A DNA stretch of 16,544 nucleotides from positions 1 to 16,544 of the forward strand of contig JAGOGU010000011.1 in NCBI GenBank assembly GCA_017996515.1, read 5' to 3'. Of this stretch, positions 1-14,959 are shown in pieces. Both the position numbers and the translations under genes were made by a program. The stretch's first letter is position 1. The number at the start of each line of letters is the position of its first letter. This stretch comes from Allobrachymonas sp. GTDB taxonomy: Bacteria > Pseudomonadota > Gammaproteobacteria > Burkholderiales > Burkholderiaceae_C. The notes beneath the pieces were generated by a model that worked only from the letters and a program-made list of their open reading frames with translations, had not been told where the DNA came from and did not search any database.

Positions 1-1003
1 CCTGCACGGTGGCCTCATCCAACTGCTGATTGATCTGTACCGGCTGACCATACTTTTGCAGCATGACCTGAATCATGGCAATCTTCATGGGCTGCTCCAT
101 ACTGTTGAAGGTATTGCGCACATTGCCCACCACCACCGGGTCGGGCTGGGCGCCCGGAATGCTGCGCCAGTACGGTGTGTTGGTGGCCTTGCCCAACAAC
201 TCCAGCACGCTCAGATCCACCAGCGTGCGAATGGCAGAGTGCCGCCCTTGCAGGTATTTGCCTTCCAGCTTGAAGCCGAACGAGTCGCCATAAAAGCCCA
301 AGCTGGCATTGGTTTCCTTGCTGAAATTCCACACCTTCATGACGTTGGCCGCCTGCATCTGCGGCATCATCTGGTTGGTACTGAAATTGACCAGATTCAA
401 GTCCAACCCCAATGAAGACAGAATGGCCGTGCGCTTCCAGTCGGCTCCGGCATCGGTCTCGCCGCGCCCCTTGCCGAAATTGAGCGACAGATTGTTGGAT
501 CGCCCCGCGCCCGACAATGCCCGGTCAAACTCGGTCAACGCACCCGTAATCACGTAGTTGGGCATGGTCACACCAAACTGCGCGCCCATTTGCGCCTGTG
601 CCACCAAATAGTCCGGATAGAACGGGATATAGACCACATTCGGGCCAATGCGGTTGATGGCCGTGCGCACCATTTCGGTAATCTCGCCCGGTATCTCAGC
701 CCCTACCAGCGGGTGCGACAGATTGGTGGCATCGCGAATGTCGCGCGTTTGCACATAAATGGTCGGGTCGCCCTTCTTGTAGATTTGCAGCATCTGCCCG
801 AATCGCTGCAATGCCAACGAATAATCATTGAGGTTGGCTGCGGGCTTGAGCTTGCGTTGCTCGCTTTCGGCATACAGTTTTTGCGTATCGCTCACCGCTT
901 TGTCCATGCTGGCACAACCGCCCAATATGGCCAAAGCAGCCAGCAGGCCGGCTCGGAAAAGAAAAGTTTTTTTGCCAGGTTGAGAAATAGCCATTGCAGT
1001 CAT
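1..1003 (-). CDS. CsgG/HfaB-like outer-membrane secretion lipoprotein (partial, C-terminus off the window)
   Basis: Probable outer-membrane pore that exports the repeat proteins encoded upstream. 334 codons are visible; the frame stays open to the left edge. Start ATG at 1003, with a modest AAGAG seven bases upstream (in-frame ATG at 994 is an alternative). The N-terminus is a lipoprotein signal ending in the lipobox LGGC (lipidated Cys30, followed by Ala-Ser, so not an inner-membrane retention signal). The body follows CsgG in order: IYVQTRDIRDAT resembles CsgG's first strand, PNYVITGALTEFD resembles NIMVEGSIIGYE, LDLNLVNFSTNQM resembles NLRVVNVSTGEI, and KYLQGRHSAIRTLVDLSV resembles the C-terminal helix. 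After about residue 295 there is extra sequence (IAMIQVMLQKYGQPVQINQQ) that looks like the start of a peptidoglycan-binding repeat. Last gene of the visible operon. The family match is by eye; whether it is closer to CsgG or HfaB is not settled. Confidence 0.78.
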   Translation of the reverse strand, partial: MTAMAISQPGKKTFLFRAGLLAALAILGGCASMDKAVSDTQKLYAESEQRKLKPAANLNDYSLALQRFGQMLQIYKKGDPTIYVQTRDIRDATNLSHPLVGAEIPGEITEMVRTAINRIGPNVVYIPFYPDYLVAQAQMGAQFGVTMPNYVITGALTEFDRALSGAGRSNNLSLNFGKGRGETDAGADWKRTAILSSLGLDLNLVNFSTNQMMPQMQAANVMKVWNFSKETNASLGFYGDSFGFKLEGKYLQGRHSAIRTLVDLSVLELLGKATNTPYWRSIPGAQPDPVVVGNVRNTFNSMEQPMKIAMIQVMLQKYGQPVQINQQLDEATVQ

Positions 1004-1096
1004 GATTGAACTCTTTTAGTCGATTGTTTTTTATGCAGAGCCTGGAAACAGCGAGCGGCCTGCCTCCTGAGTACGCAGCACGCGCACAAAAGTCGC

Positions 1097-1534
1097 TTAT
1101 TGATTGATCACAGTGACGTTTTCCGGCCCCTCTCCATCTACATACAGAATCACGGTGCCATTCACATTGCCGTCAATTTGCGGACTGGCAATGCGCACAT
1201 CACCAGTGCTGCCTGTTTGCACATCGTTGTAATTGGTACGAATGACCATGTTCTGTCGGTTGCGCGGCAGGGCAATCGTGCCGTCGGCCTGCGTCAAATC
1301 TCGCGCATTCAGCACGGTGCTTTGACGGATGGCTTTGGCTACGCGTGTTTTGGCCGTCACTTTTGCCGAAACCTTGTCATGCAATTCGATATCGCCTTTT
1401 TGCGCGTCTTTGTAATTGGCCAAGGCCTCGTTGTAATTCACTATCTGCGCCTGCCCCAATACAGGGGATAAAGCACAGACAACGCCTACCCACATCCAAT
1501 GTCTGCGCATTGCCCAACAAGAGGGAAAAAACAT
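1097..1534 (-). CDS. Small secreted protein of unknown fold in the fibre operon (possible HfaA-like or accessory factor)
   Basis: 145 aa. The start at 1534 is chosen because a near-perfect AAGGAGG sits five bases before it; ATG 1537 is only two bases from that site, and ATG 1582 has no such site. The N-terminus (basic MRRHW, then VGVVCALSPVLGQAQ) is a Sec signal peptide cut near AQ-IVNYN. The mature part has a charged N-terminal half (KDAQKGDIELHDKVSAKVTAK) and a C-terminal half rich in N, T, V and alternating hydrophobics (NVNGTVILYVDGEG) that would suit beta structure. It lies 51 bases after the long repeat gene and 93 bases before the CsgG-like gene, the slot held by hfaA in the hfaABD arrangement. 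I do not recognise a named domain; it could be a minor subunit, nucleator or periplasmic adaptor. No lipobox. Confidence 0.72.
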   Translation of the reverse strand: MFFPSCWAMRRHWMWVGVVCALSPVLGQAQIVNYNEALANYKDAQKGDIELHDKVSAKVTAKTRVAKAIRQSTVLNARDLTQADGTIALPRNRQNMVIRTNYNDVQTGSTGDVRIASPQIDGNVNGTVILYVDGEGPENVTVINQ

Positions 1535-1585
1535 CATGACCTCCTTCACATCCGCTGTTTGGCCGTTCATGCAACGGCACATCGC

Positions 1586-3805
1586 TTAATGGGTGCCACC
1601 CACAATGACCGACTGGCTGATGACACCCGTCGCTGCGCCGCCTCCGCCAAGCGTGCTGCCAGCGGGCGCCGCCACCACCTGGTTGCCCACGATGGCAACC
1701 GTTCCGGAAATATTTCCTTTATTGATGACGGAGTTGGTGATGCCGCCCGTAGCAGCAGTCCCTTGGTTGCCTGAAATCAGCACCGTGCCATGCAGGTCGC
1801 CGTGATTGATGACCGAGTTGGTCGTACCACCGGCTGCGGCGGAACCCTGGTTACCGGCAATCACCACCTTGCCCCGCAGGCGGCCGCGGTTTTCAATGCT
1901 GTTGACCTTGCCATTCCCCGTTGTTGCGCCCACGTTACCCACCAAGGTAATCGTGCTTTGGTTGATTTCGCCGCTGTTTTTCACGCTATTGACCATGCCA
2001 CCATTCGTGGCACGAGCCAGATTGCCTGAGATCAGCACATTGCTGTTGCGCAGCTGCCCGGTGTTTGTGTTTTCAACGCTATTGGCCTGACCGCCCGAAC
2101 GCACACTGCCGGTGTTGCTCATCACCGTCAGTCGACTGGCATGGATTTCCCCATGGTTATCCACGCTGTTGACGCTCCCTTTTTCGACAACATCGCCCGT
2201 ATTGCCGCTCACCTGAATCCGGCTGCCGCCTTCGATGCGCCCGCCATTGCGGTTGTGCACACTGGCTGCCACTGCATCGCCACGGCCGGCATGGGCGCTC
2301 ATGCGGTTGTTTTGAATGGCAACATCTGCATTGTTGATGCGACCTTCATTCTGCAGACTGGAAACCAAAGCCGTTTTGCCATTTTCAGCCTGCGCACGGG
2401 TGGTGGTATTGCCAGCGATGCGCACACGGGCGTTATCCAGCCTGCCATCATTGCCAACTGCCACACTGTTGGCTGCCGCCAAGCCTTTGCTGGCCGAAAC
2501 ATTCGTGGCCTGATTGCGCACAATGCCAACCCGCGCATTGTTCATTTGCCCGTCCACTTGCAAGGCATTGGCCTGACTGGTTCCGACGTTGCGGCTCACC
2601 GCACGCCCCATCACCGTCGTTTCACTGCTTTTGCTGGAAATGTTGCTGGCTCGGTTGCTGTCCAACAAAACCGTGCCGCCATTCACCTTGCCGCGAGCGT
2701 TTACCGCCAGGGCATTGGCATTGACGCGGCCACCATCGGCCTGCACATCGGTAGCCGTATTGCCGCGCACGGCAACCGTTGCACGGTTGATTTCCGTGCC
2801 CTCATTGCCTTCCACATATACGCTATTGGCAGCCAGAATGCCGTTTTTGCTGCGACCACCACCCAACACCTCGTTGGTTGAGCCTTTGACGCTGACGTTG
2901 CTGGCGGTATTTTTTTGCAGGGTAATCGTTCCGCCCTGCACGCGCCCCTGGTTGTAAACCGCCACCGAGTTGGCAAATGCCGACCCGCCGGGCGCTTCAA
3001 CCTGCGTCGCCTGGTTGCCCGACACATTCACGCGCGCGCCGTTGCCGACCGTTCCATCTTTCACGGATACCGAGTTGGCCGCCGCCATGCTGCGTGCGTT
3101 GGTATTGGCCGCTCCCAACGCCACCGAGCCTTTTCCGCCATTCGCGCTCACACGGCTGGCGCGGTTATTGGCGCTTTGCACCGTGGCGTTATCCAGTTTG
3201 GATTGGCGTGCCAACACGCTATTGGCCAATGCAGACCCACCGCTGCTGTGCACCTGATCGGCCTGGTTGCCGGACACGATCGAACGGGTGTTTTTCACCT
3301 CTGTTTGCTCGAACGATTGGCTATTGGCCAAGCTGCGGCCTGTTTTATCGACCGACGCCACAGCGCCCAATGCAACATGGCCTTTACCACCCGTGGCGCT
3401 CACATTCTGGGCACGGTTGTCTGCATTCACCGCGCGGCTGCCTTGCATTTGGCCGCCGCTTGCCAGCACACTGTTGGCTGCGGCCGTCGAACCCACGCTG
3501 CTGATATTTCCTTGGCTGCGGTTGCCCTGTACCTGTACCTGGCTGTTGCGCATATCCTGATTGCGCAACGCCGCCGCATTGGCATGCGCTGAACCTGTCA
3601 GATCAATTTTCCCGACCACGTTGGCACCAACACCACCGCTGGCGCCTTTTGTTTCTACCTTGCCACTTTGCTTGTTACCGGTGACACGGATTTTGCTATT
3701 GCCATTCAGGCTGGTTTGCGCATGCACGCCAGAAGCGGATAGCGCCCCCAAGGCCACTACACATGCAAACGCTATGGGACGAAAAGAAAACTGCAACAGC
3801 TCCAT
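1586..3805 (-). CDS. Large secreted repeat protein, putative fibre/adhesin subunit (amyloid-like or beta-solenoid)
   Basis: 739 aa. Start at ATG 3805, with AGGAG in a purine-rich run a few bases upstream; an in-frame ATG 45 bases further upstream lacks a site. Residues 1-30 form a Sec signal peptide ending GVHAQ. The remainder is about 19 degenerate repeats, each with a hydrophobic-x-G-N-x-[AT] element and, in most, an A-N-S-V element. The last three are exactly 28 aa apart; the earlier ones average 35-45 aa. The mature chain has no Cys or Trp, two Tyr, two Phe and two Pro that I can find, and is dominated by N, G, S, A, V and T. This composition fits an exported amyloid-like fibre or beta-helical adhesin. 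There is no LPXTG, autotransporter barrel or type I secretion tail, so export through the CsgG-like pore is the natural inference. Holdfast protein HfaD is the nearest analogue I know in layout; homology is untested. Confidence 0.82.
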   Translation of the reverse strand: MELLQFSFRPIAFACVVALGALSASGVHAQTSLNGNSKIRVTGNKQSGKVETKGASGGVGANVVGKIDLTGSAHANAAALRNQDMRNSQVQVQGNRSQGNISSVGSTAAANSVLASGGQMQGSRAVNADNRAQNVSATGGKGHVALGAVASVDKTGRSLANSQSFEQTEVKNTRSIVSGNQADQVHSSGGSALANSVLARQSKLDNATVQSANNRASRVSANGGKGSVALGAANTNARSMAAANSVSVKDGTVGNGARVNVSGNQATQVEAPGGSAFANSVAVYNQGRVQGGTITLQKNTASNVSVKGSTNEVLGGGRSKNGILAANSVYVEGNEGTEINRATVAVRGNTATDVQADGGRVNANALAVNARGKVNGGTVLLDSNRASNISSKSSETTVMGRAVSRNVGTSQANALQVDGQMNNARVGIVRNQATNVSASKGLAAANSVAVGNDGRLDNARVRIAGNTTTRAQAENGKTALVSSLQNEGRINNADVAIQNNRMSAHAGRGDAVAASVHNRNGGRIEGGSRIQVSGNTGDVVEKGSVNSVDNHGEIHASRLTVMSNTGSVRSGGQANSVENTNTGQLRNSNVLISGNLARATNGGMVNSVKNSGEINQSTITLVGNVGATTGNGKVNSIENRGRLRGKVVIAGNQGSAAAGGTTNSVINHGDLHGTVLISGNQGTAATGGITNSVINKGNISGTVAIVGNQVVAAPAGSTLGGGGAATGVISQSVIVGGTH
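1682..1933 (-). repeat. Three regular 28-aa (84-bp) C-terminal repeats in the large fibre protein
   Basis: Residues 625-708 are three consecutive units of exactly 28 residues, each ending in an [I]-[AVS]-G-N step and carrying NS[VI]-x-N-x-G near the middle (NSIENRG, NSVINHG, NSVINKG). A fourth unit just before them is 29 residues. The DNA copies differ at many positions, so this is an old protein repeat and not a recent DNA duplication. Confidence 0.85.
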
Positions 3806-3892
3806 ACCCTCTCCTCGTGGAAGCCAGAAGAAAAGAGGCGGCGAACGCATTCCATCAAGAAAAGTGCCCGCAGCCTCTCCGCTCTATTTGCG

Positions 3893-3921
3893 GCAAGGAC
3901 CTTCAAGCACGAAGGCCTTGC
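3893..3921 (-). promoter_or_regulatory. Intercistronic stem-loop between the two fibre genes
   Basis: An 11-bp inverted repeat (GCAAGGCCTTC with GAAGGTCCTTGC in the transcript sense, one bulged T) encloses a 6-base loop. It lies 18 bases after the stop of the 119-aa gene and 88 bases before the start of the 739-aa gene. No T-run follows in the transcription direction, so it is not a classical Rho-independent terminator. A 3'-protecting hairpin that lets the first gene be expressed more than the distal genes is the likely role (inference). Confidence 0.6.
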
Positions 3922-3939
3922 TCACAAGTCAGGCACCAA

Positions 3940-4299
3940 TTAATGGATTTGCACGCTGTTCACGTTGGCCTGACCGCCAATGGCGTTCACTTCCTCGGAG
4001 CTGTTGTCCATTACATTGATCCGGCTATCGCTCACTTTGGAGTTGCTGATCTGCACAGAGTTGACGTTGGCCTGACCAGACATATTGGCACTGACAGGGC
4101 CGGCACCCAGCGAGCCGCCACCAACCGTTACCTTGCCGGACTTGTTGCCCATGACATTGATGGTGCTGTTCTTCACTTCAGAACCGCTGGCACCTTTGAC
4201 ACTGCCAATACCAGGGATATCAATGCTGCCAGACTGGGCAAAAGCGTTGGCAGAGAAAACGAGCGTCAAAACACCAGCGATGGTTGCAATCTTCTTCAT
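3940..4299 (-). CDS. Small secreted repeat protein, putative major or nucleating fibre subunit
   Basis: 119 aa, first gene of the operon. ATG 4299 is preferred over TTG 4305 because GAGAGGAG lies at proper spacing before it. Residues 1-21 (MKKIATIAGVLTLVFSANAFA) are a textbook Sec signal peptide cut before QSGS. The mature ~98 residues contain no aromatic residue and no Cys and are rich in N, S, G and V. Two copies of the unit S-x-I-N-V-M-[GD]-N-x-S are present, and GQANVNSVQI occurs twice, the second copy ending the protein, so the chain stops mid-repeat. The same GN and NSV elements recur about 19 times in the 739-aa neighbour, so the two belong to one repeat family. Size and position recall CsgA/CsgB or HfaA, but the spacing is not the curlin S-x5-QxGxNxA repeat. 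Confidence 0.78.
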   Translation of the reverse strand: MKKIATIAGVLTLVFSANAFAQSGSIDIPGIGSVKGASGSEVKNSTINVMGNKSGKVTVGGGSLGAGPVSANMSGQANVNSVQISNSKVSDSRINVMDNSSEEVNAIGGQANVNSVQIH

Positions 4300-7447: not shown

Positions 7448-8410
7448 ATGTCAGCGTTATTCAATTCGTCCGAGCCGCTATGGCTCTGGGTTGTGTTTGC
7501 GTGCATCGTGGTGGCCGCGCTCCTGGTCGATTTCGTACTGCTGCGCAAAAAAGGTTCGCATGTGGTCGAGGCGCGCGAAGCCGCCATGTGGTCTGTCATC
7601 TGGGTAGTGGTGAGCTTGCTGTTCAACGCCCTGCTGTGGTGGGCCGTGCGCGACACAACCGGCTCCACCACCACTGCCACCGAAAAGGCCATTCATTTTC
7701 TGACCGGCTATCTGCTGGAAAAAAGCCTCGCGGTTGACAACATCTTTGTGTTTCTGATGATATTCAGCTATTTTTCGGTGCCGCAGGCTTACCAGAAGCG
7801 CGTGCTGATGTTCGGCGTGCTCGGCGCACTGGTGCTGCGCGCAATCATGATCCTGGCGGGTGGCTGGATGTTGCAGCAATTTCACTGGCTGCTGTATGTA
7901 TTTGGCGGCTTCTTGCTGTTTACGGGTGTGAAAATGTGGTTTTCTGCCGGAACGGAAATGTCGCTGACAGAAAACCCTGCGCTCAAGCTGCTGCGGCGCG
8001 TCATGACCGTGAGCAAACATTACGACGGCGAAAAATTCTTCACTTTTGAGAATGGCCGCCGCGTCGCCACGCCGCTGCTCATGGTGGTGGTAGTGATCGA
8101 ATTTTCTGATGTGGTGTTTGCCGTTGATTCGATTCCGGCCATCTACGCCGTCACAACCGATGCTTTCATCGTGCTCACCAGCAATATTTTCGCCATTCTG
8201 GGGCTGCGCGCCATGTATTTTCTGCTGGCGGCGGTAGCCAACCGCTTTTCTCTGCTGAACTATGGTTTGGCCTGCATTCTGGTATTCATCGGCCTCAAGA
8301 TGCTGCTGATTGATTGGATCAAAATTCCCGCCATGCTTTCGCTCGGCGTGGTGGTTGCCATTCTGGCCGCCACCATGATTCTGAGCTGGATGCAAACCAG
8401 AAAGCAATAA
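7448..8410 (+). CDS. alx: TerC-family membrane protein, Alx-like manganese exporter
   Basis: 320 aa, nearly the length of E. coli Alx (321). It has about nine hydrophobic segments spanning nearly the whole chain. Two internally related acidic motifs of the TerC family are present: EKSLAVDNIFVFLMIFSYF and IEFSDVVFAVDSIPAIYAVT; their Asp/Glu residues lie in membrane segments and are thought to handle metal. ILGLRAMYFLLAAVANRF follows as in Alx. Alx and its relatives export Mn2+ and are induced by manganese or high pH through the riboswitch that is found directly upstream here. The gene ends 33 bases before the stop of the convergent rhomboid gene, and I see no terminator in that gap. The older name as a tellurite resistance protein is not supported for this subgroup. 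Confidence 0.93.
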   Translation: MSALFNSSEPLWLWVVFACIVVAALLVDFVLLRKKGSHVVEAREAAMWSVIWVVVSLLFNALLWWAVRDTTGSTTTATEKAIHFLTGYLLEKSLAVDNIFVFLMIFSYFSVPQAYQKRVLMFGVLGALVLRAIMILAGGWMLQQFHWLLYVFGGFLLFTGVKMWFSAGTEMSLTENPALKLLRRVMTVSKHYDGEKFFTFENGRRVATPLLMVVVVIEFSDVVFAVDSIPAIYAVTTDAFIVLTSNIFAILGLRAMYFLLAAVANRFSLLNYGLACILVFIGLKMLLIDWIKIPAMLSLGVVVAILAATMILSWMQTRKQ

Positions 8411-8443: not shown

Positions 8444-9976
8444 CTACCTCCGGGCTTGGCTTGCCAACCACAAGGTCATGGGGTCGCGCGGTGCCAGCCG
8501 CTGCAAGGCAGGCAACCAGGCTTGCGCCTTGTCCATTCTGCCCGCTCTGGCCCAGGCATTGGCCAACTGGCTCCAGAGCGCAGGCACTTCCGGCCGATCA
8601 GGCGCATTCTTCTCCAGCAGGCGACACAGCCGCTCGGCCTCGTCCAGATCGCCCAGCACGATGAAAGTGCGCGCCAACTGCAGCATGTGCACAGGGCGCA
8701 GGCGCATGAATGGCTTGGCCTGCGCCAGATAGGTTTGGTAAGCCTGCTGTTGCAGCAGACGGGTGGCATCGTCGCGGGCGCGCAGTTGAAACAGCATCTG
8801 CGCTGCGCTATGGAAATCATCGCCATCGGGCCAGTGCCGCGCCACATCGAACCACGCTTGCAGCACCGCCGGATCTTTGGGACGCAGCTTGGCCGCTGAT
8901 CGCCAGGTTTTGCTGGCCGCCCGAAAATCCAACGCATCCGTCTGCGCCCGGGCACGCGCCATCAAGGCCGCCAGCGCGTCGGTGGCAAGCTCGCGCTGTG
9001 TTTCTTTCGCCTGCCCATCAGCCGCATGGGCACGCACCGGATACAACAGGCCAATCAGAGCCATCAGCAAAGCGCCACTGGCCAGCCCTCCAAAGTGCGC
9101 CATATAGGCCACATTGCTGTCGGATACGGCGCTTTGCAGCAGTTCATAGCCCATCCATACCGGCAGCATGATGAGCGCAGGCAGGCGCGCATAGTTGAAA
9201 TAGAACAGGATGTAATAAAAAAACCGGATGCGCTGCAAACGATACAGCACGGCATACATGCCCATCAGCCCCGAGATCGCGCCCGAAGCCCCCAGCCCGT
9301 AACCACCGCTGCCGGCATACGCCCACGCCGCCACGATCGATGCCCCCAGCCCCGCCAGCAAATAAGCCCCCAGGTACAAGCCCGAGCCCAGCGTTTTCTC
9401 CAGCGTGAAGCCGAAGATGAATAAAAACACCATATTGCCCAGCAAATGCATGAACCCGCCATGCAGAAACGTGGATGTCAACAACGTGATGGGGCGCTGC
9501 AGCACATCGGCCACGCTTTGCAAGGCGTAATCCTGCGACCAGCGCGTGGTAAAGGCTTCGGGCTCGCGCGCATTGAACGCCTGGCGCGCGGAACGCCAGG
9601 TTTCGTACTGCTCATCGTCTGCACGAATCACCTTGCCTGCCAACAAATCGCGCCTGAACTGGTGCTCATCCCACATGAAAACGTACAGCTCGCTGTAGTT
9701 TTCGTCGGCCAACTCCGCTTGCAGGCTTTCCACCAATTCATCGCCGTACTTTGCGGGATCTTGCTCGCGCTGGCGCTGGATATGCTCCACAAACCGCGGC
9801 AACTCCAATGCGGGCAAGGGGCTTTCGGCATAGATAGAGGCCGCCTTGCGCACAGCGGTCTCCTCACTCACCTGCCAGCCGAAATAAATCAGCACATTGA
9901 TCACGATCAAGGCAATCGTCATCCACGGAGGCGATTTCAGCGAGGGTTTGTGTTCAACAGGTACGGCCAGAAACAT
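8444..9976 (-). CDS. Rhomboid-family intramembrane serine protease with C-terminal TPR region
   Basis: 510 aa. Start ATG 9976 (MFLAVPVEHKPSLK) gives a short N-tail followed at once by TM1 (residues about 19-35). A hydrophilic stretch of about 130 residues follows before the rhomboid core. The core has HGGFMHLLGN (H172, H177, N181 as oxyanion), the catalytic GASGAISG (S231) and the partner AHFGG (H294), the same order as H150/N154/S201/H254 in GlpG, so it should be an active protease. After the last helix (about residue 330) about 180 residues form alpha-helical repeats with TPR character (AWFDVARHWPDGDDFHSAAQ; ALWSQLANAWARAGRMDKAQ), probably cytoplasmic and for partner binding. Upstream in-frame ATG codons exist but precede non-family sequence. 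Substrates are unknown. Confidence 0.9.
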   Translation of the reverse strand: MFLAVPVEHKPSLKSPPWMTIALIVINVLIYFGWQVSEETAVRKAASIYAESPLPALELPRFVEHIQRQREQDPAKYGDELVESLQAELADENYSELYVFMWDEHQFRRDLLAGKVIRADDEQYETWRSARQAFNAREPEAFTTRWSQDYALQSVADVLQRPITLLTSTFLHGGFMHLLGNMVFLFIFGFTLEKTLGSGLYLGAYLLAGLGASIVAAWAYAGSGGYGLGASGAISGLMGMYAVLYRLQRIRFFYYILFYFNYARLPALIMLPVWMGYELLQSAVSDSNVAYMAHFGGLASGALLMALIGLLYPVRAHAADGQAKETQRELATDALAALMARARAQTDALDFRAASKTWRSAAKLRPKDPAVLQAWFDVARHWPDGDDFHSAAQMLFQLRARDDATRLLQQQAYQTYLAQAKPFMRLRPVHMLQLARTFIVLGDLDEAERLCRLLEKNAPDRPEVPALWSQLANAWARAGRMDKAQAWLPALQRLAPRDPMTLWLASQARR

Positions 9977-10349
9977 GATGGCCGCATTGTGAAGCGAAAT
10001 GACACAAATTACACGGATTGAATCTTTTCCCGTGCGCAAGTCGAGCTTAACGTCAGCGAAACACAACTTTTTTCCGTCTGCCCAAAGCCTGTTTGCCTGC
10101 AAACGCGCCAAATCCGGCATTGCGGTCATGGATGACGCTGATGGCGGCTATCTCCAGCATCGGCACATATTCATAAGCAATATGGATGCGCATCAGTTTC
10201 TCTGATGTTGTCGTTACAATGTGCAAATACTCCCTGCTCCGCAACCGATCCATCGCGCGTTTGTTGTTGCGGCTGCTTGGTCGCCTACTGCTTGCCCGTT
10301 TATATGGCAGACTGTGGGTTTTCCATTTTTTACCTTCCGGCTTTTTATC
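9977..10349. other. 373-bp divergent region between the rhomboid gene and dnaN
   Basis: It must hold the promoters for both genes. A TACAAT box at 10215-10220 is a candidate -10 for dnaN but has only a poor -35. A 46-codon minus-strand frame starting ATG near 10195 lacks a ribosome site and family resemblance and is not called. I see no TTATCCACA-type DnaA boxes, so no sign of oriC. Confidence 0.5.
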
Positions 10350-11456
10350 ATGCAAGTCTTCAAAGCCCCCCAGGCTCAGGTTCTGGCAGCCCTGCAATCC
10401 GTAGCAGGGGTGGTGGAGCGACGCCAAACCCTGCCCATTCTTTCCAATGTGCTATTGCGCAAGCAAGGCGAAACGCTGGAGCTGCTGACCAGCGATCTCG
10501 AAATCCAGATTCGCACCAGCGAGACGCTGGGCGGCGATAGCGCCAGTTTTCAAACCACCGTGGGCGCACGCAAGCTGATCGACATTTTGCGCAGCATGCC
10601 GTCTGACCAGACCGTGACGCTCGAATCGGCACAGGGCAAGGTCGTGCTCAAAGGCGGCAAGAGCAAGTTCACGCTGCAAACGCTGCCGGCAGAAGACTTT
10701 CCCCTGGTGCAAGAGGCTGCCAATTTCGGCCCTGCGTTCAGCGTGCCGCAAAAAACGCTCAAGCGCCTGCTGGCGCAGGTGTCGTTTGCCATGGCGGTGC
10801 ACGACATTCGCTATTACCTCAACGGCATCTTGTTCGTGGCCGAAGGCAAAACCCTGAACCTTGTGGCCACCGACGGTCACCGCCTGGCCTTTACCAGCGC
10901 CGATCTGGATACCGAAGTGCCCAAGCAGGAAGTGATCCTGCCACGCAAAACCGTGCTGGAGTTGCAACGCCTGCTCAGCGACAGCGACGAGCCGCTGGAG
11001 CTGCAATTTGCCAACAACCAGGCGCGCTTCCGCTTTGGCAAGATGGAATTCGTCACCAAACTGGTGGAAGGCAAATTCCCCGACTACCACCGTGTGATCC
11101 CAAAAGACAACCGTCACCACCTCGTGCTGGGGCGCCTGCCGCTGCTGGCCGCGCTGCAACGCACGGCCATTCTCACCAGCGAAAAATTCAAAGGCGTGCG
11201 CATCAATGTCGAACCCGGCACCCTGCGCATTGCCAGCAACAACGCCGAACAGGAAGAAGCGGTGGACGAGCTGGATATCGAGTACAGCGGCGATGCGATG
11301 GAAATCGGCTTCAACGTCACCTATCTGATCGATGCACTCACCAATATGGATCAGGAGATGGTGCAACTCGCCCTGCAAGACGGCAACAGTTCGGCCCTCG
11401 TCACCATTCCTGAAAACACGCATTTCAAATACGTGGTGATGCCGATGCGGATTTGA
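10350..11456 (+). CDS. dnaN: DNA polymerase III beta subunit (sliding clamp)
   Basis: 368 aa (E. coli 366). The homodimeric ring clamp tethers polymerase III and other enzymes to DNA. Start ATG 10350 (MQVFKAPQAQVLAALQSVAG) matches the family N-terminus; in-frame ATG 10221 would add unrelated residues. Visible family motifs are RRQTLPILSNVLL, FAMAVHDIRYYLNGILF, ATDGHRLAF, FRFGKMEFVTKLVEGKFPDY, and the C-terminal end TPENTHF-like segment YVVMPMRI, where MPMR forms part of the client-binding pocket. No Shine-Dalgarno is obvious. dnaA is not upstream and gyrB is not downstream, which is unusual for this gene; it is bounded by a divergent rhomboid gene and a convergent metK. Confidence 0.97.
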   Translation: MQVFKAPQAQVLAALQSVAGVVERRQTLPILSNVLLRKQGETLELLTSDLEIQIRTSETLGGDSASFQTTVGARKLIDILRSMPSDQTVTLESAQGKVVLKGGKSKFTLQTLPAEDFPLVQEAANFGPAFSVPQKTLKRLLAQVSFAMAVHDIRYYLNGILFVAEGKTLNLVATDGHRLAFTSADLDTEVPKQEVILPRKTVLELQRLLSDSDEPLELQFANNQARFRFGKMEFVTKLVEGKFPDYHRVIPKDNRHHLVLGRLPLLAALQRTAILTSEKFKGVRINVEPGTLRIASNNAEQEEAVDELDIEYSGDAMEIGFNVTYLIDALTNMDQEMVQLALQDGNSSALVTIPENTHFKYVVMPMRI

Positions 11457-11589: not shown

Positions 11590-12771
11590 TTACAGACCAG
11601 CAGCCGCACGCAACGCAGCCGCTTTATCCGTTTGCTCCCAAGTAAATTCCGGCTCATTGCGGCCAAAGTGACCGTAAGCCGCGGTCTTGGTGTAGATGGG
11701 GCGTTGCAGATCCAGCATTTCGATGATGCCTTTGGGGCGCAAATCGAAGTGCGCGCGCACCAGCCGGGCAATTTGTTCGTCGGCGATCACGCCCGTGCCT
11801 TCGGTATAGACGGTGATATTCATCGGCTCGGCCACGCCGATGGCGTAGGCCACCTGAATCTGGCATTGCCGCGCCAGGCCCGCCGCCACGATGTTTTTGG
11901 CCACATAACGCGCGGCATAGGCGGCACTGCGATCGACCTTGGTGGGGTCTTTGCCACTGAAAGCACCGCCGCCATGCGGGCAAGCGCCGCCATAGGTGTC
12001 CACAATGATTTTGCGACCGGTCAAGCCGCAATCGCCCTGCGGGCCGCCCACCACAAAGCGCCCCGTGGGGTTGATGAGGTATTTGGTGTTTTGCAACCAT
12101 TCGGCTGGCAACACGGGTTTGATGATTTCTTCCACCACCGCTTCGATGAAGCTGGCTTTCATCTTCGTGGGAGTTTCGCTCTGGTCCGGCGTGTGCTGGG
12201 TGGAAAGCACCACGGTGTCGATGCTGTGCGGTTTGCCGTCCACGTAACGCATGGTGACCTGACTTTTGGCATCAGGCCGCAAGAAGGGCAAGCGACCGTT
12301 TTTGCGCAATTCGCTTTGACGCTCCATCAACCGGTGGGCGTAGTGAATGGGCGCGGGCATCAGTTCGGGCGTTTCGTCGCAGGCGTAACCAAACATCAGG
12401 CCCTGGTCGCCCGCGCCGGTGTTGAGGTGATCATCCGATGCTTGATCCACCCCCTGCGCGATGTCATTGCTCTGCTTGTCGTAGCAGACCATCACGGCGC
12501 AGCCCTTGTGGTCGATGCCGTAAGTGGTGTCGTCGTAGCCGATAGCCTTGATGGTGTTGCGCGCCACGTCGATGTAATCCACATGCGCGTTGGCGCTGAT
12601 TTCGCCTGCCAGCACCACCAGGCCGGTATTGGTCAGCGTTTCGGCGGCCACGCGGGCGCGGGTGTCTTGTTCCAAGACCGCGTCCAGCACGGCATCAGAG
12701 ATTTGATCGGCCACCTTGTCGGGATGGCCTTCGGAGACGGATTCGGAAGTAAAAAGAAAGTCGTTCGCCAT
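11590..12771 (-). CDS. metK: S-adenosylmethionine synthetase (methionine adenosyltransferase)
   Basis: 393 aa (E. coli 384). It makes SAM from methionine and ATP in the cytosol, as a tetramer with Mg2+ and K+. Start ATG 12771 ([19 protein letters not shown]) follows the family; GAGGA lies ten bases upstream. Motifs are EGHPDK (catalytic His16), the ATP-binding [12 protein letters not shown] near residue 120, the second signature [19 protein letters not shown], and RYVAKN. It is convergent with dnaN with a shared terminator, and divergent from the lipid A acyltransferase pair, an arrangement common in Burkholderiales. A structured leader precedes it. Confidence 0.97.
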
Positions 12772-12867
12772 GGATGTGTTTTCCTCAAGCAAGCACATTC
12801 AGCGCGTTGCCACCTACGGCGAACGCTTTAGCAGTAGGCGCTGCCTGTGCCGTGGCTTTGCCTGTAC

Positions 12868-12949: not shown

Positions 12950-13100
12950 GGATGATAGCATTTTGATTGAAGATGATTTGATAACCTTATATCGATCAGG
13001 CTCTTGCGCCAGATCCGGCAAGGGGCATGCGCAGACTCGTATCCGTCCCCGGTGGCTGCAAAACACATTTTTCATCGCAACGGCGCAAACCGTTTTTGAC

Positions 13101-14009
13101 ATGATTGGCATATTTCGTTTTTTATCGCATTTTCCTCTGCGGGTGTTGCACGCTCTGGGCGCCGTGATGTGGTGGCTGGTGTATGGGCTGTCCGCGCGTT
13201 TTCGCAAACGCTGGAACGAAAACCGCGCCCAGGCAGGCTTGAGCGCCAGCCAGGTGCGCGGCGGCATCGCCCACAATGGCCGCATGATGCTGGAGCTGCC
13301 CCGCCTGTGGCTGGGCAAGCCCGTGCCCACATTCTGGCAAGGCCTTGAGCACGTCGAGCAGGCCTACGCCCAGCAACGCGGCGTTGTTTTTCTGACGCCG
13401 CATTTGGGTTGCTTTGAAATCACGGCGCAGATGATCGCCAAAAGCTTTCATGAGCAGCATGGCGACCTCACCGTCATGTATCGCCCGCCCAACCAGCGCT
13501 GGATGACCGAGATGATGACGTATGTGCGCAACCGCCCCGGTCTGCGCGCCGTGCCCACCAACTTGACGGGTGTGCGCCAGATGGTGCGCGAACTGCGCCA
13601 GGGGCGTGCCGTAGGCATTCTGCCCGACCATGTGCCGCCCGAAGGCCAAGGGCTGTGGGCGCCATTCTTTGGCCGCCCTGCCTACACCATGACGCTGGCG
13701 GCCAAGTTGGTGCACCAAACGGGAGCCGTCGTGGTTTTCGTCTGGGGCGAGCGCCTGCCTGCCGCGCGCGGTTATCGAATGCACTGCGTGCCCATGCAAG
13801 AGCCCCTCTCGGCCGACCTGCAAACAGCCGTCACACAAATCAACCAGGCAATGGAAGCACTGATTCTGTCGGCCCCCGAGCAATATATGTGGAGCTACGC
13901 GCGCTACCGCCATCCGCGGCCACAGCCTACAGTTTCCGAACAAGCGCCCGCTGCTCAACGACCTCCGGCCAACGCGTCTGCCAACCAAGAACAAGAACCC
14001 AGTGCCTGA
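13101..14009 (+). CDS. Lipid A late acyltransferase, LpxL/HtrB family (first of two)
   Basis: 302 aa inner-membrane enzyme that adds a secondary acyl chain to Kdo2-lipid IVA during LPS assembly. Start ATG 13101 (MIGIFRFLSHFPLRVLHALG) gives the usual N-terminal membrane helix. The catalytic HX4E dyad is H101/E106 in LTPHLGCFEITAQ. Family signatures follow: VMYRPPNQRWM, VRELRQGRAVGILPDHVPPEG and FFGRPAYTMTLAAKL. The last 30 residues are a Pro/Ala/Gln-rich tail with no expected role. No clear Shine-Dalgarno. Its stop overlaps the start of the second acyltransferase by one base (TGATG), so translation is coupled. Which acyl chain or position each enzyme uses cannot be read from sequence; LpxL and LpxM labels would be guesses. 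Confidence 0.93.
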   Translation: MIGIFRFLSHFPLRVLHALGAVMWWLVYGLSARFRKRWNENRAQAGLSASQVRGGIAHNGRMMLELPRLWLGKPVPTFWQGLEHVEQAYAQQRGVVFLTPHLGCFEITAQMIAKSFHEQHGDLTVMYRPPNQRWMTEMMTYVRNRPGLRAVPTNLTGVRQMVRELRQGRAVGILPDHVPPEGQGLWAPFFGRPAYTMTLAAKLVHQTGAVVVFVWGERLPAARGYRMHCVPMQEPLSADLQTAVTQINQAMEALILSAPEQYMWSYARYRHPRPQPTVSEQAPAAQRPPANASANQEQEPSA

Positions 14010-14959
14010 TGCAAGCAGCAACCGATTCCCGGCAGCCCTCTGACAACACCGCCCCGCAGCGGACCTTGCCCCCACCCAGTGGTTTGGAGCGTGCTGTTTA
14101 CGCCCTGCTGAGCCTGCTGGCCCGGTTGCCGCTGGGTGTATGGCGCACGCTGGGCGCCATACTGGGCTGGCTGATGTATCTGCTACTGGATCTGGCACGC
14201 AAGCGCAAACGCGTTGCCGACATCAATTTGCAACTGTGCTTTCCCGAACTGGACGCCGCCCAGCGCCAGCACATCATCCGTCAGCACTGCGTGCGGCTGG
14301 CTCAATCCCTGTTCGATCGCATCTGGTTGTGGCACGGCAGCGAGGTCCTGTTGCAACGTCGCATCCACTGGGCAGGCAACCGCACAGCTCTTCTGACCGA
14401 CACCCCCACCATCATGTTTGCCCCGCATTTTCTGGGCATGGATGCTGCGGGCATGCTGCTGGTGCCCTTGCTGCGACCCCGCGCCTGTGTCACCATCTAC
14501 AGCCCGCAACGCAATGCGGCCATGGATCGCTGGATGCGCCGCGGCCGTAGCCGCTTTTCCAACAGCCGCCCCATGTGGAAAGGCGATGGCATCAAGCCCA
14601 TCATCTCTGTCCTGCGCAAAGGCGGCATCCTGTACCTGCTGCCCGATATGAACTTCGGCGCAGAAGAATCCATTTTCGTCAATTTTTTCGGACACCCGGC
14701 CGCTACCATTCCGTCGCTGTCGCGCTTTGCCCGGCTGGGGCGGGCGCAAGTCGTCACTGCCGTGACCTATATGGAAGCGCACGGCTACACCGTACATGTG
14801 AGCGATCCGTGGCGCGATTTTCCTACCGATGATGTGCATGCCGATACCCAGCGCATGAACACCCATCTGGAAGACTGGGTGCGCCAGCGCCCCGCAGAAT
14901 ACTTCTGGCTGCACAAGCGCTTCAAAACCCGCCCGCCCGGCATGCCGCCGGTGTACTGA
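14009..14959 (+). CDS. Lipid A late acyltransferase, LpxL/HtrB family (second of two)
   Basis: 316 aa. Start ATG 14009 shares a base with the upstream stop TGA. A polar N-terminal stretch of about 25 residues precedes the membrane helix (YALLSLLARLPLGVWRTLG). The dyad here is HX4D: H140/D145 in FAPHFLGMDAAG. Other family features are KRKRVADINLQLCFPELDA (stronger match to LpxL than the first copy has), VTIYSPQRNAAMDRWMRRGR, GGILYLLPDMNFG and FFGHPAATIPSLSRFARL. It probably adds the other secondary acyl chain, giving the cell a pair with different specificity. Confidence 0.93.
   Translation: MQAATDSRQPSDNTAPQRTLPPPSGLERAVYALLSLLARLPLGVWRTLGAILGWLMYLLLDLARKRKRVADINLQLCFPELDAAQRQHIIRQHCVRLAQSLFDRIWLWHGSEVLLQRRIHWAGNRTALLTDTPTIMFAPHFLGMDAAGMLLVPLLRPRACVTIYSPQRNAAMDRWMRRGRSRFSNSRPMWKGDGIKPIISVLRKGGILYLLPDMNFGAEESIFVNFFGHPAATIPSLSRFARLGRAQVVTAVTYMEAHGYTVHVSDPWRDFPTDDVHADTQRMNTHLEDWVRQRPAEYFWLHKRFKTRPPGMPPVY

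Follow-up and report, generated by a model that had tools for sequence, protein, structure and literature searches.

A conserved Comamonadaceae operon combining a CsgG/HfaB-type lipoprotein with secreted proteins of predicted β-helix fold

We analysed contig JAGOGU010000011.1 of an Allobrachymonas sp. assembly (GCA_017996515.1, 62% complete) over its whole length of 16,544 nucleotides (G000:C107:1-16544; hereafter the window). The first 4,299 positions carry four genes, A to D, and the contig ends inside gene D. These genes belong to a conserved, unnamed eight-gene cluster of Comamonadaceae (A-B-C-D-E-F-G-H), a distinct export operon of the CsgG/HfaB type with cargo predicted to be β-helical. 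Since one of its proteins is related to the pores of curli and of the holdfast, and others are long secreted proteins with a spiral fold unlike curli, a surface fibre or an adhesin is its probable product, exported in a curli-like way. We assign a probability of about 0.6 to the reading that this is a curli-like, HfaB-route surface-export operon whose β-helix cargo forms a cell-anchored fibre or adhesive coat. No publication on the eight-gene operon was found among the matches listed in the open-licence PMC literature.

Gene order and occurrence of the operon

An initial annotation of this DNA had described four consecutive minus-strand genes at positions 1-4299 in a betaproteobacterium. The four open reading frames (ORFs) are indeed present (Table 1), and the nearest named relative of the window D protein comes from a Brachymonas metagenome-assembled genome (locus L002, 89% identity), in agreement with the proposed source. 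As regards this contig the extent given is correct; relatives have four more genes, E to H, so that it takes in only about half of the operon. For comparison we used L002 and 14 further orthologous loci (fetched among 20 stretches), i.e. 15 complete loci, or 16 with the window. Gene order and strand are identical in all 15 complete loci (in L035 and L038 the matched part of B is situated after A), and several adjacent genes overlap or sit within a few bases of each other, an arrangement typical of operons (starts chosen by script). F was not detected by tblastn at E <= 1e-3 in L031, where a gap of 483 nt separates E from G (L031:11178-11660). As read in L002, E matches the Sel1 repeat below its cutoff (E 1.2e-5), G is a lipoprotein recognised by eye with no Pfam match above cutoff, and H contains an OmpA domain (E 1.5e-18).

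Table 1. Features of the operon in the window
Feature	Position	Strand	Description
Gene A	3940..4299	-	Short secreted protein of 119 aa with about two repeat units; ORF, ribosome-binding site and signal sequence (by eye)
Stem-loop	3893..3921	-	Just past the stop codon of A, within the A-B gap; without a T run
Gene B	1586..3805	-	739-aa secreted repeat protein of predicted β-helix fold, without a transporter domain of its own
Gene C	1097..1537	-	Secreted protein of about 146 aa, directly before D
Gene D	2..1003	-	Truncated to 334 aa where the contig ends; outer-membrane lipoprotein of the CsgG/HfaB type
Long β-hairpin stretch of D (predicted)	290..556	-	Strands 160-176, 180-186, 192-216 and 221-248 of the L002 model, moved 10 residues to the window protein

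Among 299 genomes of the family, 57 match D, including 15 orthologues at 64-100% identity and 42 matches at 22-35% that come mostly via a longer protein. B is found in 15 of the 299, the same 15 that have the close D orthologues. The long repeat gene was thus never found without D in these genomes, and the suggested tie between the two genes holds. At the level of the order, the D profile matches 17 of 349 genomes, four of them strongly (G000, G020, G088 and G314), and the A profile matches 9 of 330, namely the same four strongly and five marginally; in the class, the A profile finds 1 of 321 genomes, that of the window itself. By these counts, the system has a patchy distribution within the family and is rare outside it in the genomes sampled. 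A search for plasmid-borne copies of D gave a single match, at 27% identity, in Azospirillum. Database relatives of the system are named Variovorax, Xylophilus, Acidovorax, Comamonas, Diaphorobacter, Ottowia and Brachymonas, among others.

The order sample also contains a reduced form of the locus. L063, from G314, a genome of another family, has the order H-A-C-D followed by a DUF2807 gene, with no B at the locus (relatives judged by tblastn; D 5.5e-94, H 6.8e-6), and the A profile, which elsewhere finds B too, matched only once in this genome. We infer from this arrangement that A, C, D and H form the core of the system and that B is a later or optional part. Separately, a DUF2807 (head GIN domain) gene adjoins a D-type gene in two quite different loci (L063:7563-8285 and L045:6573-7466).

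Upstream of A, 13 of the 16 loci (L028-L040, e.g. L036:15095-15727) carry a divergent gene that reads by eye as a lipoprotein (208-312 aa as called). It is absent in the window, L002 and L027, and the one copy scanned has no Pfam match. A CsgD-like regulator beside the operon, for which this divergent gene of about 210 aa was considered, was rejected on the same lipoprotein reading.

The lipoprotein D and the secreted repeat proteins

The initial annotation took D for a CsgG/HfaB-like lipoprotein, and several lines of evidence bear this out. D (418 aa in L002) has the lipobox LGGC with Cys30, and the homologous cysteine is invariant across 60 aligned relatives. Its profile matches that of HfaB with a probability of 98.1%, which establishes distant homology. 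With the predicted structure, Foldseek ranks CsgG first (E 9.5e-7), and CsgG accounts for 22 of 23 matches at E <= 1e-3; FlgT (4.2e-3) and PelC (1.5e-2) follow lower down, and LptE is not among the 50 matches listed. VIA also puts CsgG first, with LptE tied. The CsgG fold is thus predicted with moderate confidence from a model, in which the long β-hairpin stretch, modelled at a predicted local distance difference test (pLDDT) score of only 40-79, lies where CsgG has its membrane-spanning strands. The proposed search of D with hidden Markov models (HMMs) of the CsgG and HfaB families does return hits, but these are weak and below cutoff: PF03783 (CsgG) matches 14 of 60 D proteins at E <= 0.1 (best 0.0012) and 7 of 15 D loci, each below cutoff, and the NCBIfam model of HfaB scores 17.9 and 17.4 bits against a cutoff of 300. 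A search of the PDB gave only chance matches with the single sequence and none with the profile. A few database members are named 'CsgG/HfaB family protein' or 'CsgG'.

D is the probable export pore, and the main rival explanation concerns this protein. D could be a periplasmic lipoprotein ring or clamp of CsgG fold, as PelC, LptE and FlgT are, that lacks a barrel and serves as a wall-bound scaffold, while A, B and F leave by an unlinked barrel or stay as a periplasmic, envelope-stabilising layer with E and H. We consider this unlikely, since CsgG outranks these proteins in Foldseek, long hairpins are predicted at the position of the CsgG membrane strands, the tight linkage to secreted repeat cargo recalls hfa loci, and no barrel-type transporter was recognised in B or in E-H of L002.

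Sec-type signal sequences were recognised by eye in A, B and C, as the initial annotation had it. A starts at an ATG preceded by aggag at 4311-4307, and its orthologues have 119-122 aa in 16 of 16 loci. For B, an upstream ATG at 3850 is an alternative start giving 754 aa, and database relatives reach about 1,230 aa. C starts at the ATG at 1537 or 1534, with aaggagg ahead of it; a 161-aa reading from 1582 was judged less likely, the 146-aa start having a good ribosome-binding site. C precedes D in all 16 loci, and a distant C-like gene (HMM E 3.3e-5) precedes D in L063 also, a constant place that would make C a partner of the pore.

A and B have a repeat in common (profile-profile probability 97.6%, E 4.6e-12), as had been claimed for two of the secreted proteins, and A matches F as well (97.6%), so that one repeat is found in A, B and F. 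B contains 14 copies of the motif [AVT]N[SAG][VIL], whereas 500 composition shuffles yield 2.2 on average and never more than 8. The AlphaFold model of B (pLDDT 83.5, predicted template modelling score (pTM) 0.85) has as its top structural matches in VIA β-helix tailspikes, Vag8, EtpA, AlgE4 and PfbA; B thus models confidently as a parallel β-helix that resembles secreted adhesins and tailspikes, not curlin. Among 24 B members, Pfam gave no match better than E 0.026, and no two-partner secretion (TPS) or autotransporter domain was matched at E <= 1. Pfam and NCBIfam gave only chance-level scores for A, B, C, F and G. A few B members bear the database name 'beta strand repeat-containing protein'.

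With a predicted pore fold identical in type to that of curli, and secreted repeat proteins in which N, G, S and V abound, the operon could also be a true but very divergent curli system. We regard this as extremely improbable. Searches of the 16 genomes with the system (E. coli as positive control; the window's own genome being 62% complete) found CsgE, CsgF and the curlin repeat (PF07012) in none at E <= 0.001; CsgC/CsgH and CsgD were not searched for. The curlin half-motif is absent from the three A proteins tested, and its counts in three B proteins (3, 3 and 0) are near the shuffle means (1.1, 1.4 and 1.6). The cargo, with B matching β-helices, largely contradicts a curli system. These results uphold the initial annotation in what it said of missing CsgE and CsgF and of non-curlin repeats, and its view that the system shares only the pore with curli is right, yet the pore protein bears an extra C-terminal domain.

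Other features of the window

The 81 nt past the stop codon of A fold with an energy of -38.3 kcal/mol (z -4.2) in the window. Whole-fold z values below -2 occur after A in 9 of 16 loci, as compared to 12 of 96 random windows and 0-3 of 14-16 loci after other genes, which is suggestive of a stem-loop as a distinctive feature of A. A single-stem score weakens this case: z is 0.8 in the window, and values above 2 are seen in 6 of 16 loci after A, in 6 of 16 after C and in 0-2 of 14-16 after other genes. As a guess, the stem-loop may help to produce A in excess over B. A promoter scan found none near A, and an Rfam scan of the window gave no match at the gathering threshold.

Beyond the operon, the window contains a TerC/Alx family gene (7448-8410), also without an Rfam match; genes of this type are often under a manganese riboswitch. 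It is followed by a rhomboid protease domain and then weak TPR matches (8444-10129; the rhombosortase match is weak). According to the domain scan, dnaN lies between the rhomboid gene and metK (10341-11456 and 11590-12798), and not in its usual place beside dnaA and gyrB. A tandem pair of lipid A acyltransferase-type genes is found at 12963-14009 and 13655-14959.

Proposed mechanism and comparison with known systems

In the mechanism that we propose, the Sec signals of A, B, C and F would take these proteins to the periplasm, and D, a lipoprotein of predicted CsgG fold, would form an oligomeric pore in the outer membrane. A peptidoglycan-binding-like tail of D and the OmpA-type protein H would anchor this pore in the cell wall; E (Sel1) and the lipoprotein G are putative helpers in the periplasm. 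A, B and F would cross D in an unfolded state and take on a parallel β-helix fold outside; these helices might then stack or attach via the shared repeat, resulting in a cell-anchored fibre or adhesive coat. A is the probable basic subunit, being kept together with C, D and H at the locus that lacks B, and B would be the long, adhesin-like one. Of this scheme, the gene order, the co-occurrence, the common repeat and the distant relationship of D to HfaB are shown, and the CsgG fold of D and the β-helix of B come from structure models; that D forms a pore and exports A, B and F, and that these assemble and adhere, is inferred.

The cargo for which CsgG-type pores are mainly known is amyloid-like. 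If β-helix proteins with 739 to about 1,230 residues leave by such a pore here, this route is more general than curli, and its cargo is of a class seen otherwise in autotransporter and two-partner systems. The proposal would also provide a surface system present in 15 of the 299 sampled family genomes with an identity that can be tested. We see even odds for a broader idea, namely that CsgG-type secretion has a separate branch whose pore is anchored in the wall and exports adhesins of parallel β-helix fold in place of amyloid curlins; the CsgG-PG_binding-DUF4384 family beside Sel1/DUF2807 genes would then supply further members.

The operon is similar to curli (type VIII secretion) in the predicted pore fold, the lipoprotein nature of the pore protein, and the operon-linked secreted repeat subunits of two sizes. 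It differs in the missing CsgE, CsgF and curlin repeats (16 of 16 genomes) and in its cargo, a predicted β-helix of another repeat.

As in HfaABD of Caulobacter, a CsgG-type lipoprotein follows a small secreted protein and is linked to a repeat protein. The resemblance to hfaABD put forward in the initial annotation holds for the pore, but does not extend to A, B and C, for which no kinship to HfaA or HfaD was detected in small sets: hhalign against shallow sets of HfaA (4 rows), HfaD (3) and long HfaD-like proteins (2) reached at most 21.8%, over the signal peptide. Kinship of B to the long HfaD-like proteins, suggested by an N-rich repeat that they seem to share by eye, was not supported (hhalign 2.6%). 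The gene order also differs, and here there are four more genes (Sel1, F, lipoprotein and OmpA) and the extra C-terminal domain of D. These comparisons bear on another explanation, in which the exported β-helices form no fibre and serve, like HfaABD, to hold exopolysaccharide at the outer membrane. The distant homology of D to HfaB speaks for such an anchor, as does the β-helix fold predicted for B, which is common to many proteins that bind or cleave polysaccharides; according to PMC6707917, HfaA and HfaD depend on HfaB to reach the outer membrane. Considering that A, B and C have no similarity to HfaA or HfaD and that none of the eight genes is recognised by Pfam as one for polysaccharide synthesis (D-H read in L002), we find an anchor of this kind quite unlikely, and a fibre or adhesive coat remains our preferred reading.

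The nearest wider family of D comprises proteins of about 550 aa with a CsgG core, PG_binding_1 and DUF4384 (99.8% over 337 columns). A Sel1 neighbour is seen in 4 of 8 of their loci (with mostly one neighbour gene scanned per locus), and none of the eight has A, B, C or F among its called ORFs; H-, G- or E-like genes are near in four. The CsgG-like core is joined to DUF4384 in the three proteins scanned (L041, L042 and L045) and to PG_binding_1 in two of them. Four distant D relatives of about 550-600 aa (L041:5958-7655, L042:8470-10182, L043:8470-10113 and L046:7459-9300) all have a Sel1 gene beside them. CsgG-DUF4384-type proteins probably explain most of the 42 weak-only matches in the family, and they may represent a second, undescribed envelope system.

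The β-helix adhesins EtpA and Vag8, of two-partner and autotransporter systems, have a β-helix passenger like the one predicted by the B model. Unlike these adhesins and PfbA, the 24 B proteins have no TPS or autotransporter domain, and a CsgG-type gene takes the place of the barrel partner.
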